A stretch of 36,909 nucleotides of DNA, taken from Planctomycetota bacterium. GTDB taxonomy: Bacteria > Planctomycetota > SZUA-567. A model generated the notes under the pieces. That model was not told the origin of the DNA. It was given only the letters and a program-made list of their open reading frames with translations, and made no database searches. Shown piece by piece: positions 14,466-36,909 of the stretch. Position 1 is the stretch's first letter, and the number at the start of each line of letters is the position of its first letter. The position numbers and the translations under genes were made by a program. The DNA lies in assembly GCA_031261425.1 (NCBI GenBank), contig JAISJR010000080.1:1-36909 (forward strand), written 5' to 3'.

Positions 14466-14595
14466 GAACAATTAACAATTAACAATTAACAATTAAGGAG
14501 TTAATTAGCAGAATTTCGCGAAGCGATTTTTAATCGTCAAACTCCACCATTTTTAATTTTTAATTTTTAATTTTTAATTGTTAATTGTTAATTGA
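14466..14595. repeat. AACAATT-heptamer palindrome, copy 3
   Basis: Inverted relative to the copy at 8683-8822. AACAATT arms lie on both sides, and the core GCGATTTTTAATCGTCAAACTCC with TTTCGCGAAGCG is in the middle. The right arm encodes the last residues (INN) and TAA of pth. Confidence 0.8.
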
Positions 14596-22933: not shown

Positions 22934-23090
22934 AGAGCAGAGTTAAGAGTTTAGAGTTTAGAGTTGAGCAGTGGTTGCGCTTCGCGCATATTGAAAATAA
23001 CTCCACTGCTAAACTCTAAACTCTCAACTCTAAACTTTCAACTTTCAACTTTCAACTTTCAACTTTCAACTCTAAACTTGCAAATCCGCC
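22933..23090. repeat. GAGAGTT/TAGAGTT-heptamer palindrome with long right arm
   Basis: The left arm (AGAGTTAAGAGTTTAGAGTT...) is followed by the core GCAGTGGTTGCGCTTCGCGCATATTG, then AACTCCACTGC and a right arm that ends in about five tandem CAACTTT heptamers (23035-23070). Here the heptamer has expanded asymmetrically, an example of repeat-number growth. Confidence 0.8.
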
Positions 23091-30740: not shown

Positions 30741-30964
30741 AACTCGTGTTACGCGGTCAACCAAAAGACGCGAATTTTTACGAATAAGAGAGAGAGATTT
30801 TTTGTCCACGAATTACACGAATTACACGAAATAAAGAACCGGAAAACGGACAAAAAAATTTGGAAAGCACACTAACCTTCGCTTCGCTCGGTTTCGTGAA
30901 AATTCGTGTTAAGTTCTTTTCGTGTTTATTCGTGGCTTCCTTTTTTTTGCGCGTAACGTGAGTT
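30741..30964. repeat. TIR-bearing element, copy 4
   Basis: About 224 bp with ends AACTCGTGTTACGCG (30741-30755) and CGCGTAACGTGAGTT (30950-30964), identical to those of copy 1. The interior is nearly the same as copy 1. It ends 30 bp before the ATG of the 1240-aa glycosyltransferase fusion and leaves only the ribosome site in between, so promoter activity from or across the element is needed for that gene. Confidence 0.8.
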
Positions 30965-30994: not shown

Positions 30995-33900
30995 ATGCCC
31001 ACCTTTGCCGATTTGCGACCGTTGACGGCGGATTTGCCGCCGCTCGTGCTGTTGAGTTCGCTTGATTTCGGCGGCGCCGGAAGCGCGGCGAGTCGGTTGC
31101 TTGAGGGTTTGATTGCCGCCGGCGCCGACGCGCGGATGATTTGTTTGCAAAAAAAATCGAATTTGCCGCAGGTCGGCGAATTGAAACATCCGCAAACGGG
31201 ACAACCGTTGTGGAATTATGATTGCGCGTTGCGACAGGAAGTAATGCGGAGTTATCCAAATCCTCCGGCGGGATTAGAAATGTTTTCGCTGACGAAATCG
31301 TTAGTCAATCTCGCCGATTTTGATGTGGTGAAAAACGCGCCGTTGATTCATTTGCATTGGGTCGCGGGGCTCGTCGGCTTTCCGCAAGCGCGCGAGGTCT
31401 TGCGGAATAAACCGGTGGTGTGGACGGCGCGGGATATGAATCCTTTCACCGGTGGTTGCCATTATTCCGCCGGTTGCGAAAAGTGGAAAACCGACGGTTG
31501 TCAAAGTTGTCCGCAACTCGGCGCCACGACGGTGGATTACGATTTGGCGGCGGGAAATTTTGTTAATAAATACGACGGCTATCAGGGATTGAACCTAAAC
31601 ATCGTAACGATCAGCCGGCAATTTGAACAGTTAGTCGGCGAAAGTTTGTTACTTAAAAATTATCCGCGAGTCGTTATTCATAACGGTTATTCGGCAGAGA
31701 CCTTCGCCGCGCCGCCGCGAGAAAATGCCCGCGCCGCATTCAAATTTCCGCGCGATAAAAAAATTATTCTTTTTGTCGCCAACGACGTTAAGCGCCGCAA
31801 CAAAGGATTTTATTTGTTGGTCGCCGCGCTCGACCGTTTGCGTAAAACTTGGGCGGAAAATCCGCCGCTGTTAGTGGTTGTCGGAATGCCGCCGAAAGAG
31901 ATGTTGCCGCAAGGATACGATTGCTGTTTGTTCGGGAAGATTGACGACAAGCAAAAAATGACCGCCATTTACGCCGCCGCCGACGTTTTTGTGTCGTCGT
32001 CGTTGCAGGAAGCGTTTGGTAATGTAACGGCGGAAGCGCAAGCGGCGGGAACGCCCGGAATCGTTTTCGCCGACACCGGCGGCGCCGATACGGTGATTGA
32101 CGGCGTTACCGGTTTCGTGGCGAAGCATCCAGGTTTGCCGCTTGCGGACGCGCCAATGGCGACGCAAGAGGAAAGCGTGAGCGATTTAGCCGCGAAAATT
32201 AAACAAGTTTTATCTATGCCTGCCGCCGACTATGAGAAAATGCGGGAAAATTGCCGTCAAAATGCGCGAGCGGAATTTTGTTTGGAATTGCAGGTCGAGC
32301 GTCATCTGCGACTTTATCGAAAATTGTTGGGCTTGCCGGAAACGCCGACCGCGCGGACGACCGTGCCGGTCGCCCCGCCGGCGCCGCAACCCGCCGCCGC
32401 GCCCGTCGCCGATTACGACTATATTTCGCCGGAATTGAAATCAATCAACCTTGATACCGCTTTCCCGAATTTAATCATTGGCGATAAAAACGTGTCGCAA
32501 TGGCAATGGAGTCGCAAAAACATTCCGCACCATCATTACGTTGATCGGAGGATTCCTGATTGCGGTTTTCTCGATCGCGACGAAGCGATTCTGCTTTACA
32601 ACTCCGCATTGCCGTTCGCCGGTCAACCGGCGTTGGAAATCGGATGTTTTATGGGGTGGTCAGCGTGTCATTTAGCAAGCGCCGGCGTGATTTTAGACGT
32701 GGTTGACCCGCTGTTGAAACGAGATTTATTCGCGCAAAGCGTAACGTCATCGCTGACGGCGGCGGGAGTGCGCGAGCGGGTTAATTTAGTCCCCGGTTTT
32801 TCGCCGCAAGAAGTTGAACGTTTGGCGTTGGCGGGCAAGCGGTGGAAATTTATTTTTATTGACGGCAATCACGAGGCGCCGGGTCCGTTACAAGACGCGC
32901 AAGTTAGCGAAAAATACGCCGCCGATGACGCGCTGATAATGTTTCACGATGTCAACGCGCCGGCGGTTGCCGCCGGAGTGGACTATTTCCGTCAACGCGG
33001 TTGGTCAATCAAAATTTATCACACGACGCAAATAATGGCGGCGGCGTGGCGCGGCAAAATTACCGCTCCCGCGCACACTCCCGACCCCAAAATCAAATGG
33101 GAAATCCCCGCGCATTTGCAATTTTTAGCGGCGTATTTTGAATCTGTGGAATCGCAAGATGTCGCCATTACTGGCACGTTAAATGCGGGGGGGGGCACTG
33201 TCAACGGCGGAAAAATTCGCCGCACGCCGCTTGAAACTAACGCGCAAACTTTGGCGCGATTCTATGCCGACGAAATTGCGAAAATTATCGCGGCGGCGAA
33301 ACAATATGAAATGGCGTGGCGCGAAAATCTGCCCATTCCGGCGCCGCGCGAGGAGTTGACTGATTTTTATCTCCAGTCAACCTCATTTGATCGTAGCGGC
33401 AATGTTTTAATCAAAACCGTCAACGGACAAAAAACTTATTATCGCGGCATTGTTGCGGACAAGGCGGAGGATTTTCGGCAACTTTATCATTGCGGCGTCT
33501 TGACGGCGATTGCCGATGCCGGTCGGTTAGTCCGCGTAAAATTGACCAATTATTACACCGAGGATTTTCCACTGATTTTCGAATTAGAAACGTTGCGAAT
33601 TGTCAGTAGCGCGTATTGGTCTTTTTCGATGCTACGCGAAGCCGCGGTCAATATGTTGGTCATTAATGCCGTTTTGAAACATTATGGCTACGGCGTTTGG
33701 GACGGGCACTGTGCCAACACCACTTTTATGCGCAATCGACCGGTATTTTTCGATGTTGGCAGTTTAGTAAAAGGTGGCAGTCGGAGTTTTTTCAACGAAG
33801 TTTTTTCGTATGCTCTAATTCCTTTGATGATGCTCGCCACCGGAAAAAGTCATTTTGCGCGGAGCGCCGCCTATTATGTCGCGCCGCGAATTTTACCGGC

Positions 33901-34717
33901 GTCTATCGGGCGCAAGGAATCCGCCGAAATCCAAACGCTGTTTTCGATGTTTATGCAACATCACGCGCGACATAGCGCGGATGCCTATAACACCATATTA
34001 CGAGAAGTGTTTCAACAAGGAATAATAAAGCCGGAATATATTGATTTCCTCTTTCCGTATTGCTCGACAACGAAAACCGCGTGGGGCGATTATCACGATA
34101 AGGCGTATGCCCAAATCGCGCCGGACAAACGGTACATTCGAATTTTGGAATTGATAAAACAGTTTTCTCCTGACGCGCAAACTTGTGTCGATATTGCGGG
34201 CAACGCCGGTTACGTTGCGTATTTGTTGGCGGAAACCGGACAATTTTCTTCGATTATCAATCTTGATTACGATGAAAATGCGGTCGAAAGCGGACGAGGT
34301 AAAATAAAATCCGATACCGTCGATTTCTATTTGACTAACGCGATGGCTGCCGATGGCAATATGCCGCTTGCCGATTTCACCGCGTCGGTCAGGTCGGATT
34401 TGGTGTTAGCGTTGGCGGTTACGCATCATTTACTCTTAACGCAATGCTACAATATCCACGCGGTTTTAGCGAGGATTTCGATGTACACGCGGAAATACGC
34501 CTACGTTGAGTTTTGTCCTTTGGGAATGTATAACTCGGAATTCCATAAAGACAATCCGCCGCCGGTGCCGCCGTGGTATAACGACAACTGGTTTGAACAA
34601 AATTTTAAGAAAGCATTTAAAGTTATTCACAAAGAAGTCGTGGCGCGAGCCGTAATCGCGGGTGTCGAACGCGACCACCGAATTTTGTATATCGGCGAAA
34701 AAATTGAACGGAGTTAA
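30995..34717 (+). CDS. Three-module glycosyltransferase-methyltransferase-methyltransferase fusion
   Basis: 1240 aa. Module 1 (about 1-440) is a GT4-type GT-B glycosyltransferase: DFGGAGSAASRLLEGL, HLHW (119-122), VVWTARDMNPFTGGCHYSAGC and the donor-site EX7E (E339 and E347). Module 2 (about 475-715) is a class I SAM methyltransferase (LEIGCFMGWSACHLA near 548, FIFIDGNHEAP, MFHDV). Module 3 (about 735-1240) resembles NoeA-like nodulation methyltransferases: a region with YGYGVWDGHCANTTF...PVFFDVGSL, then a second SAM fold (VDIAGNAGYVAYLLAETG, INLDYDENAV). A nine-G tract (33187-33195) lies between modules 2 and 3 and is in frame. A GAGGAG site precedes the ATG. It probably modifies a surface glycan. 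Gene 34745 follows after 27 nt and shares the N-terminal start. Confidence 0.85.
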   Translation: MPTFADLRPLTADLPPLVLLSSLDFGGAGSAASRLLEGLIAAGADARMICLQKKSNLPQVGELKHPQTGQPLWNYDCALRQEVMRSYPNPPAGLEMFSLTKSLVNLADFDVVKNAPLIHLHWVAGLVGFPQAREVLRNKPVVWTARDMNPFTGGCHYSAGCEKWKTDGCQSCPQLGATTVDYDLAAGNFVNKYDGYQGLNLNIVTISRQFEQLVGESLLLKNYPRVVIHNGYSAETFAAPPRENARAAFKFPRDKKIILFVANDVKRRNKGFYLLVAALDRLRKTWAENPPLLVVVGMPPKEMLPQGYDCCLFGKIDDKQKMTAIYAAADVFVSSSLQEAFGNVTAEAQAAGTPGIVFADTGGADTVIDGVTGFVAKHPGLPLADAPMATQEESVSDLAAKIKQVLSMPAADYEKMRENCRQNARAEFCLELQVERHLRLYRKLLGLPETPTARTTVPVAPPAPQPAAAPVADYDYISPELKSINLDTAFPNLIIGDKNVSQWQWSRKNIPHHHYVDRRIPDCGFLDRDEAILLYNSALPFAGQPALEIGCFMGWSACHLASAGVILDVVDPLLKRDLFAQSVTSSLTAAGVRERVNLVPGFSPQEVERLALAGKRWKFIFIDGNHEAPGPLQDAQVSEKYAADDALIMFHDVNAPAVAAGVDYFRQRGWSIKIYHTTQIMAAAWRGKITAPAHTPDPKIKWEIPAHLQFLAAYFESVESQDVAITGTLNAGGGTVNGGKIRRTPLETNAQTLARFYADEIAKIIAAAKQYEMAWRENLPIPAPREELTDFYLQSTSFDRSGNVLIKTVNGQKTYYRGIVADKAEDFRQLYHCGVLTAIADAGRLVRVKLTNYYTEDFPLIFELETLRIVSSAYWSFSMLREAAVNMLVINAVLKHYGYGVWDGHCANTTFMRNRPVFFDVGSLVKGGSRSFFNEVFSYALIPLMMLATGKSHFARSAAYYVAPRILPASIGRKESAEIQTLFSMFMQHHARHSADAYNTILREVFQQGIIKPEYIDFLFPYCSTTKTAWGDYHDKAYAQIAPDKRYIRILELIKQFSPDAQTCVDIAGNAGYVAYLLAETGQFSSIINLDYDENAVESGRGKIKSDTVDFYLTNAMAADGNMPLADFTASVRSDLVLALAVTHHLLLTQCYNIHAVLARISMYTRKYAYVEFCPLGMYNSEFHKDNPPPVPPWYNDNWFEQNFKKAFKVIHKEVVARAVIAGVERDHRILYIGEKIERS
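33187..33195 (+). repeat. Poly-G (G9) tract at a module boundary
   Basis: Nine G follow AAATGC and are read as A731-GGG. It is in frame in this sequence, so all modules are made. Ten G would put TGA (33232-33234) in frame after 12 more codons; eight G would also truncate after a few dozen codons. Either change leaves the glycosyltransferase and first methyltransferase and removes module 3. Confidence 0.85.
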
Positions 34718-34744: not shown

Positions 34745-35950
34745 ATGCAGACCTTTGCCGATTTGCGCCTGCTGACCGCCGATTTACTTCCAGTGTTGAC
34801 GCTTGCCGCGACCGATTTTAGCGGCACGGCACCGAATCTTGCCACGCTAATTCATTTTGGCTTAACGCAAGCCGGTGCCGAAGCCCAAATGGTAACGCTG
34901 TGGAAAAAGACGAATATCGCGACCATTGGCGAATTACAAAAAAATGGCAAGCCATTGTATCATATTGTTCGCGGCGGCGGCGCGCAGAACGCGCATTTTT
35001 ATTTAAACCAAATTGCGGATTTACTGAATAACGCGGGATTGATTCTCTTGTTTGATATTCGCGGTTTAGTCGATTTTCCGACGGCGGCGCCGCTTTTGCG
35101 CGGCAAGAAAATTGTCTGGACGCTTGAAAGCGCCGAGCAATTAGCCGACGCCAACGCGCTGACCGTCATCGGCGAACCGCCGCTAAATCTCGTCGTGGTT
35201 ACGCCGACCGAGGAACTTGCCACAGAAGTTAAACAACATCCGGTGCTGAAAAATGTCTCCGTCGTCGCGATTCCCTCCGGTGGTTCCGATGACTGTTCGC
35301 GTTTTACCGCGCTCACGCTTTATTTGCAACTCTGCCGCCGCAGGTTGGCGCTTGTCGAAATCACCGCCGAACAGTTTTCGCGCGTTCGCGCCGTCGCCGC
35401 CGCCGAGCCGCAATTTTATAACAATATAATGAACTACACGACGGCGTTTTCCCGCCAATATCGCTACGCCGACTCGCGCCCGCCGCAAAATTCCGCGCCG
35501 ATCGTAATTTGGATTGGCGACGGCAAGCGCTGGATCGGAGGTTTGGCCGACCGTTTGGGCGGCATCGTGTTTGCATTTCAAATGTGCCGACAAGTTGGGC
35601 GCGATTTCAAAATCCATTTTGTTCACCCGTTTCGTTTGACAGATTATTTACAACCCAATCAATACAATTGGACGATTGCCCCGGAAGCGATTTCTTATCA
35701 TCCGCAATATTCTCAACCGGTGATGTTGATAGATGGAGGGGGGGGGATATGCGAGTCGCGTTGGCGCAAGCGTGGTTCGACGGCGTTTATCGGCAATTGC
35801 ATTGTTACACCAATTGGGGGATTGCCGGTATTGATTTTTGCGAAAATTTTACGCGGCTATTTAAACCCACCGCGGCGTTGCAAGCGCAACTCGACTACTG
35901 GACGGCGCAAATCGGCGGTGCTTATATTTCGGTCTCGTTCCGCTTCTTAA
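34745..35950 (+). CDS. Glycosyltransferase-like fusion, 5' part (frameshifted)
   Basis: 401 aa as read. Residues 1-190 are a diverged copy of the N-terminal GT-B half of the upstream gene (shared FADLRxLTADL start, GAxAxM and KKxN); no donor-site half follows, so this part is probably not catalytic. From about 250, GGLADRLGGIVFAFQM (G265 onward), FKIHFVHPFRLTDYLQPNQY and ISYHPQYSQPVMLID resemble the N-terminal half of a bacterial fucosyltransferase-like (NodZ/O-FucT-type) family. After G9 (35738-35746) the frame becomes nonsense (an Arg/Ser-rich end) and stops at 35950. The true continuation is in another frame (35749-36402). One more G, or two fewer, restores a 34745-36402 ORF of about 552 aa. 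A GAGGAA site precedes the ATG; the gene is 27 nt after the larger fusion. Confidence 0.75.
   Translation: MQTFADLRLLTADLLPVLTLAATDFSGTAPNLATLIHFGLTQAGAEAQMVTLWKKTNIATIGELQKNGKPLYHIVRGGGAQNAHFYLNQIADLLNNAGLILLFDIRGLVDFPTAAPLLRGKKIVWTLESAEQLADANALTVIGEPPLNLVVVTPTEELATEVKQHPVLKNVSVVAIPSGGSDDCSRFTALTLYLQLCRRRLALVEITAEQFSRVRAVAAAEPQFYNNIMNYTTAFSRQYRYADSRPPQNSAPIVIWIGDGKRWIGGLADRLGGIVFAFQMCRQVGRDFKIHFVHPFRLTDYLQPNQYNWTIAPEAISYHPQYSQPVMLIDGGGGICESRWRKRGSTAFIGNCIVTPIGGLPVLIFAKILRGYLNPPRRCKRNSTTGRRKSAVLIFRSRSAS
35738..35746 (+). repeat. Poly-G (G9) tract causing a frameshift
   Basis: Nine G after ATGGA. The upstream frame reads DGGGGICES; the downstream frame needs GGGGDMRVALAQAW. G10 or G7 joins them. 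The tract also forms a GGAGG-like ribosome site just before ATG 35749, so the downstream part could start on its own. Confidence 0.85.
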
Positions 35951-36402
35951 AACTTCTGGGCGACTTTGTCGATGTGGACACGGTCTTGCCCTTGCCGCCA
36001 TCGGAACGCGACGCGCTAATTAACCGATGCTTGCACCATTTGTCCGATATTTATGAACGGGAAAAAGACGGAATAAACCGAGTTTTGGTATGTAGCGACA
36101 GCGCGACTTTCTTACAAGCGGCGGCGCAACTGCCCTTTGTATTTAGCGTGCCGGGAAAAATCCGTCATATCGACCGCGACAGGAGTTGCGATAATGACGC
36201 GGCAATGAAAGCGTTCGTCGATTATTTTCTAATTAGCCGCGCGCAAAAAATTTTTCTGGTCATCGACGGACAAATGCGTAACAGCGGTTTCCCGAATTCT
36301 GCCGCGTTACTTGGCGGCAAAACGTGCGAGGTCTGGCGCGAAGAGCCGGCTTCAACACCTCCGGTGCCCATTGAAACGCCGAATAAATACGACTCGAAGT
36401 AA
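35749..36402 (+). CDS. Glycosyltransferase-like fusion, 3' part (frame-shifted continuation)
   Basis: 217 aa from ATG 35749 (MRVALAQAWFDGVYRQLHCY). The frame is open back to 35509, but the part before 35749 is out-of-frame translation of the upstream gene. It contains RVLVCSDSATFLQAA, GKIRHIDRD, AMKAFVDYFLISRAQKIFLV and a RNSGFPNSAALLGGK end, a pattern like the C-terminal half of O-fucosyltransferase/NodZ-type enzymes (SDS...D...LS....S.F...AA..G). It is thus the second half of the domain begun in the 5' part. Independent expression is possible because the G tract gives a good ribosome site. A Pro/Thr tail closes it. Confidence 0.7.
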   Translation: MRVALAQAWFDGVYRQLHCYTNWGIAGIDFCENFTRLFKPTAALQAQLDYWTAQIGGAYISVSFRFLKLLGDFVDVDTVLPLPPSERDALINRCLHHLSDIYEREKDGINRVLVCSDSATFLQAAAQLPFVFSVPGKIRHIDRDRSCDNDAAMKAFVDYFLISRAQKIFLVIDGQMRNSGFPNSAALLGGKTCEVWREEPASTPPVPIETPNKYDSK

Positions 36403-36619: not shown

Positions 36620-36909
36620 ATGAAGCGCTTATTGCCCATCGGCATTCAGGATTTTATCGGCATCCGGCAAGACGGTTTTGTTTATGTCGATAAGACCGCG
36701 CGGATTTATGACTTACTTACCGGTTCGGGCAAGGCGTATTTTTTATCGCGTCCGCGCCGGTTCGGCAAGTCGCTGACTTGCTCGACGCTTGACGCGATTT
36801 TTTCCGCGCGCCGCGAACTGTTCGACGGCGCGGTCGGCGGCGCCGCGTTGGCGATAAACTCGCTCGACTGGGACTGGAAAAAACATCCGGTGATTCGCCT
36901 TGACCTCAA
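36620..36909 (+). CDS. AAA-ATPase-like / PD-(D/E)XK family protein, N-terminal part (cut by window end)
   Basis: 96 codons visible, running off the right edge. It starts MKRLLPIGIQDFIGIRQDG, then VYVDKTARIYDLLTGSGKAYFLSRPRRFGKSLTCSTLDAIF and later NSLDWDWKKHPVIRLDL. The YVDKT, FLSRPRRFGKSL (Walker A-like) and HPVI.LD blocks mark the AAA-ATPase-like family (PF09820), whose full proteins (about 500-600 aa) usually end in a PD-(D/E)XK nuclease-like domain (DUF1703). They are often multicopy and of unknown role. AAAGGA precedes the ATG. The 217-bp gap before it (36403-36619) holds no recognised feature. Confidence 0.88.
   Translation, partial: MKRLLPIGIQDFIGIRQDGFVYVDKTARIYDLLTGSGKAYFLSRPRRFGKSLTCSTLDAIFSARRELFDGAVGGAALAINSLDWDWKKHPVIRLDL

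Follow-up and report, generated by a model that had tools for sequence, protein, structure and literature searches.

Poly-G tracts as probable contingency switches in predicted modular glycan enzymes of a planctomycete

Two adjoining genes of a probably uncultivated Planctomycetota bacterium each carry a tract of nine G residues, and both tracts are probably slipped-strand contingency switches, by which gene 1 would be trimmed by a module and a domain of gene 2 turned on and off. The window, that is the whole stretch of 36,909 nucleotides that was analysed, is contig 98 of a draft genome (2.62 Mb in 104 contigs). It contains exactly two G-runs of six or more, these two G9 tracts. The features concerned are the following.

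30995..34717, + strand: gene 1, 1240-aa fusion; GT4 and Methyltransf_24 domains lie ahead of the tract, and a C-terminal module containing a second methyltransferase domain lies behind it; reads ON
Residues 242–425 of gene 1: GT4 domain (Pfam Glycos_transf_1)
32633..32953, + strand: module 2 of gene 1, Methyltransf_24 domain (Pfam), residues 547–653
33187..33195, + strand: G9 tract of gene 1, in frame, boundary of modules 2 and 3, codons 731–734
33399..34714, + strand: module 3 of gene 1, about residues 802–1240, defined by homology to free-standing proteins; lost on a one-base slip
34745..36402, + strand: gene 2, N-terminal domain related to that of gene 1 and a fucosyltransferase-like domain of predicted NodZ/FUT8-like fold; reads OFF
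35738..35746, + strand: G9 tract of gene 2, within its fucosyltransferase-like domain, where the frame breaks

An earlier note on this DNA had placed an in-frame G9 tract at 33187–33195 in a 1240-residue fusion, between its second and third modules; the tract of gene 2 is not named there. Exactly this tract was found in that frame, nine Gs without interruption read as GCG GGG GGG GGC (Ala-Gly-Gly-Gly), and the Pfam order (GT4, Methyltransf_24, tract, then 506 residues) agrees with the assigned position. The part behind the tract includes a weak second methyltransferase domain (Pfam, residues 1066–1159). By frame calculation, G8 yields a product of 787 aa and G10 one of 746 aa in place of the 1240 aa at G9, the stop codon lying 13–54 codons downstream. 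A one-base change removes 453–494 residues, close to the predicted loss of about 500, and retains the GT4 domain and the first methyltransferase.

The further claim that a slip acts on a module gained from comparison with other genomes. Ten distant genomes of the phylum encode free-standing proteins (open frames of 457–530 aa) with which the part behind the tract can be aligned, and module 3 is also homologous to a sequence in the congener (G001:C95). The alignments begin about 50–70 residues past the tract, with the conserved start of the free-standing homologs at about 65–70, and the tract therefore lies in a linker before a complete module. This anatomy supports the view that a slip in gene 1 would remove a complete module. 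In L214, the one module 3 homolog checked by Pfam, the next gene encodes a sulfatase-family protein. The label NoeA-like, given to module 3 in the earlier note, gained no support, as no Pfam or NCBIfam family names the module; its methyltransferase domain is only weakly recognised. The AlphaFold model of module 3 reached a pLDDT of only 30, and sequence search revealed no solved structure for module 3 or for the domain family of gene 2.

The front part of gene 1 occurs with other partners. No relatives of the 1240-aa protein were found in the collections of genome contigs and viral contigs. The GT4 domain of the congener is 62–65% identical to that of gene 1 but is joined to other glycosyltransferases in a protein of 2085 aa. 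In this syntenic gene (L135 5935–12276), a single open frame encodes three GT2 domains together with one GT4 and one methyltransferase domain, and no long G tract is present. The congener has no counterpart of either window tract; its module 3 ends at a contig end. In the genome under study, an open frame of 1538 aa combines a related N-terminus with GT2, pyruvyl transferase, deacetylase and radical SAM domains. As the GT4 domain and the N-terminus are fused to differing partners, the locus appears to make modular glycan enzymes with exchangeable parts. The end of the window (36803–36909) is identical to the first 107 bases of contig C52 (L137 1–107), which carries the 1538-aa frame with the same N-terminal domain. 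It is possible that gene 2 is followed by this frame, but the 107 identical bases may also be a repeat.

In gene 2 the tract interrupts a domain of about 270 residues. G9 gives a frameshifted product of 401 aa, G10 one of 552 aa and G7 one of 551 aa; a change by one unit thus separates 552 aa from 401 or 362 aa. Five paralogs of gene 2 in the two congeneric genomes match both sides of the tract point in single open frames. Because these paralogs run uninterrupted across the tract point, the reading frame of gene 2 is disrupted and the gene is OFF at G9. Three paralogs contain arrays of AACG within the coding sequence (peptide TNER) in 19, 9 and 11 copies. The 19- and 9-copy arrays are in frame with the conserved N-terminus (ON), the 11-copy array is out of frame (OFF). 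With AACG arrays in the paralogs and poly-G in gene 2, two repeat types would therefore switch one enzyme family. Neither a Pfam match nor an informative NCBIfam family was found for gene 2. A Foldseek search with the model of a paralog (pLDDT 59.5, pTM 0.57) yielded only fucosyltransferases down to rank 43, with a best E-value of 1.7e-6; among the matches are the GDP-fucose transferases NodZ, FUT8, Arabidopsis FUT1 and POFUT1/2.

The window alone is weak evidence against chance, since two or more G9 tracts were matched in 5 of 100 dinucleotide shuffles, which keep the tracts' own GG dinucleotides; the genome-wide excess is decisive. The genome contains 96 G-runs of 8 or more, compared with 1.8 expected under an order-2 model of the window, an excess of about 50-fold. 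Run lengths and gene classes were counted in stretches fetched around the tracts. In these 647 kb the numbers of runs are 226 (length 5), 35 (6), 5 (7), 7 (8), 12 (9), 9 (10), 10 (11), 13 (12), 20 (13) and 11 (14), so that the distribution is bimodal, reaching its low point at length 7 and peaking again at length 13. In the congener (G001), 71 runs have a length of at least 8. Runs of 10 or more number 77 here, 54 in G001 and 4–39 in the other genomes of the family. Many tracts are close to the 5' ends of genes, in the first tens of codons or immediately ahead of the start codon; unlike these, both window tracts are located mid-gene. The sequence A/T-A/T-T-A/G-C (WWTRC) directly precedes 49% of the G10–20 runs in this genome (G000) and 26% in G001, compared with 1–4% of G4–6 runs. 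An origin of the tracts as pieces of a long mobile repeat is not supported, as the conservation of the flanks fades within about eight bases.

Among the 57 tract-associated genes that were scanned, 41 have Pfam matches: 13 glycosyltransferases (GT2, GT4, GT9, GT10, GT87, PMT), 7 glycan modifiers (AT3 acyltransferases, sulfatase-family enzymes, FkbM methyltransferase, Kdo kinase, polysaccharide deacetylase), 7 autotransporter-type proteins, 9 signalling proteins (six hybrid histidine kinases, a chemoreceptor, a Ser/Thr kinase and a PAS protein) and 5 others. These classes are those expected of contingency loci, judged from the composition of the tract-gene set alone. Taken together, the tracts look like a very large collection of switches that turn surface genes on and off at random. 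In four hybrid histidine kinases, G9–G14 tracts are located 5–8 codons ahead of the stop codon (L036 4549, L040 4475, L069 4518, L100 4491); slippage would alter the C-terminal tail only.

Lengths and frames vary across the tracts. Among 27 tracts flanked by long open frames, the frames on the two sides are in phase at 11 and out of phase at 16. Comparison of the tract regions of the two genomes revealed about 15 tracts at a shared site with differing length, among them (here/congener) 11/8, 10/9, 10/13, 9/11, 13/11, 9/12, 15/12, 12/10, 15/14, 14/12 and 12/14. One subtilase autotransporter and its ortholog differ in state: G12 in this genome is out of frame (OFF) and G14 in the congener is in frame (ON). 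In L064, a G10 tract puts the two halves of a histidine-kinase ATPase domain in two frames. MutS and MutL are both present in the genome, so that the tracts are not explained by a loss of mismatch repair; slippage is thus independent of mutS or mutL loss. The earlier suggestion of phase variation was supported by the genome-wide tract set, the length differences between orthologous sites and the ON and OFF homologs, with further evidence from the bias to surface and glycan genes and from the AACG arrays in the gene 2 paralogs.

Slipped-strand phase variation accounts jointly for the tracts, the frames, the length differences, the gene classes and the AACG arrays. The G tracts would gain or lose Gs by slipped-strand mispairing during replication. 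At G9, gene 1 would be produced as the full fusion of 1240 aa; with one G more or less, GT4 and the first methyltransferase would be retained and module 3 would be missing, so that slippage would switch a single glycan-modifying step and leave the remaining enzyme in place. The placement of the tract supports such a module-level outcome, for which the NgoAV HsdS switch offers a precedent. The tract of gene 2 is enclosed in a single catalytic domain, and slippage there would toggle the entire fucosyltransferase-like activity, the assembled sequence being OFF. In both genes a one-unit change toggles between a full-length and a truncated product, as in phase variation. Judged from the sequence, the length of both window tracts would vary from cell to cell, the truncated product of gene 1 may be stable and active, and the products of both genes are predicted to modify a surface glycan. 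G9 is at the short end of the tract lengths of this genome, and both window tracts may therefore switch more slowly, being presumably less mutable.

The gene 1 tract might instead be a real contingency tract that switches off the whole gene, the truncated product of GT4 and methyltransferase being degraded or its mRNA decaying. This would resemble the many tracts here that act near a 5' end, and the tract of gene 2, which clearly breaks a whole catalytic domain. We consider it rather unlikely for gene 1, where the tract lies between modules and module 3 is free-standing elsewhere. The entirely different C-terminal partners of the GT4 domain in the congener also make it plausible that the front half works without module 3. 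Transcriptional or translational slippage, by which RNA polymerase or the ribosome would derive the two products of each gene from DNA of constant sequence, would account for gene 2 keeping two intact halves while out of frame, and homopolymers are able to support transcriptional slippage. However, tract lengths differ across species, and the gene 2 paralogs hold AACG arrays, which are classic substrates of DNA slippage and are not known as sites of transcriptional slippage. An origin at the RNA level is therefore very improbable.

Another explanation of the G9 in gene 1 would be an ordinary Gly-rich linker written in GGG codons and devoid of a regulatory role. The linker is indeed rich in Gly, and a tract of nine is short by the standard of this genome. 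However, GGG is rare (10% of the Gly codons in the 13 ORFs of the window) and the gene 1 tract is the sole GGG-GGG case among the 65 Gly-Gly pairs of these ORFs. Given also the excess of long runs described above and the G9 in the adjoining related gene, chance is quite improbable. Tract lengths in the draft could also be wrong, by poly-G artefacts of two-colour Illumina sequencing or by homopolymer miscalls, and gene 2 would then truly be in frame. The G22 and G66 that stand at contig ends do look artefactual, as does a G34 in the congener, and several tracts are near contig ends. Four contig-end runs resemble sequencing artefacts (G9 and G22 on C3, G17 and G66 on C26), which leaves about 92; runs of this appearance (G22, G66, clustered G20–G34) are located at L032 1–70, L049 4536–4627, L164 and L165. 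An artefact is accepted for the few contig-end runs only. Interior tracts recur at matching sites in the separately assembled congener, carry the conserved WWTRC flank and cluster in surface genes, and a G9 is usually inside the accuracy of short reads; assembly error is thus an improbable source of the tracts considered here.

Phase variation mediated by simple sequence repeats, the reading that we prefer, is of a known kind and here unusually large; module-level switching would be a variant of it if the short form is active. Contingency genes of the Haemophilus lic type carry tetranucleotide repeats. Like the paralogs of gene 2, they have repeat arrays near the start of glycosyltransferase-like genes, with ON and OFF states; the repeat unit is another one and the glycosyltransferase family is unrelated, as the arrays here are AACG and the fold is predicted to be NodZ/FUT8-like. 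Strains of Campylobacter jejuni contain 18–39 phase-variable genes, and for one strain variability has been validated in tracts of at least 8 Gs (PMC6321876). The tract of gene 1 lies inside the reading frame at a length not below this threshold. The poly-G/C surface-glycan genes of C. jejuni (PhasomeIt, PMC6321876) resemble those described here in having intragenic tracts of 8 or more, ON and OFF frames, many tracts per genome and a surface bias. The differences are in scale, with 18–39 genes there and about 90 tracts here, in the commonest tract length, 9–10 there and 13 here (PMC6321876), and in the presence of MutS and MutL in this genome.

For switching between parts of one protein, the closer comparison is NgoAV hsdS of Neisseria gonorrhoeae, in which poly-G selects a truncated active subunit or a fusion of different specificity (PMC9577141). 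As in gene 1, the tract is between two halves of one protein and the switch is at the level of modules; the NgoAV switch alters the specificity of DNA methylation, whereas gene 1 would lose a module of a predicted glycan enzyme (PMC9577141). Late-gene tracts of G10–G14 in Helicobacter canadensis change C-termini or join two CDSs (PMC2823697). They resemble the tracts ahead of the stop codons of the hybrid kinases, but the C-terminal changes are mostly of a few residues, compared with about 450–490 in gene 1 (PMC2823697). In the part of the literature that was searched, poly-G phasomes were not reported for any uncultivated lineage; the nearest uncultivated case found was a Gracilibacterium with a repeat-driven hypervariable gene (PMC6851277).

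Cultured pathogens and commensals adapted to hosts have so far supplied most known cases of repeat-driven phase variation. In this organism it would operate at a comparable or larger scale, with a sister species at hand for comparison, and surface variation in this genus is testable from metagenomic reads alone. The fusion of gene 1 is a clean candidate for module-level switching, in which a slip would alter the action of an enzyme and not its production. As a tentative picture, in which we place somewhat less than even confidence, the organism has a simple-repeat phasome (poly-G and tetranucleotide) that is among the larger ones recorded and in which giant modular glycan enzymes are edited by module, giving alternative glycan programs from cell to cell.

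Repeats of other types were also observed. Heptanucleotide tandem repeats (AGAGTTG, AATTGTT, TTTCAAC and rotations, 4–13 copies) are scattered in both congeneric genomes, and in the window they are located at 14467–14494, 14549–14576 and 23033–23067. The intergenic region upstream of gene 1 (30780–30950) contains repeated, partly inverted CACGAATTACACGAA / TTCGTG motifs.
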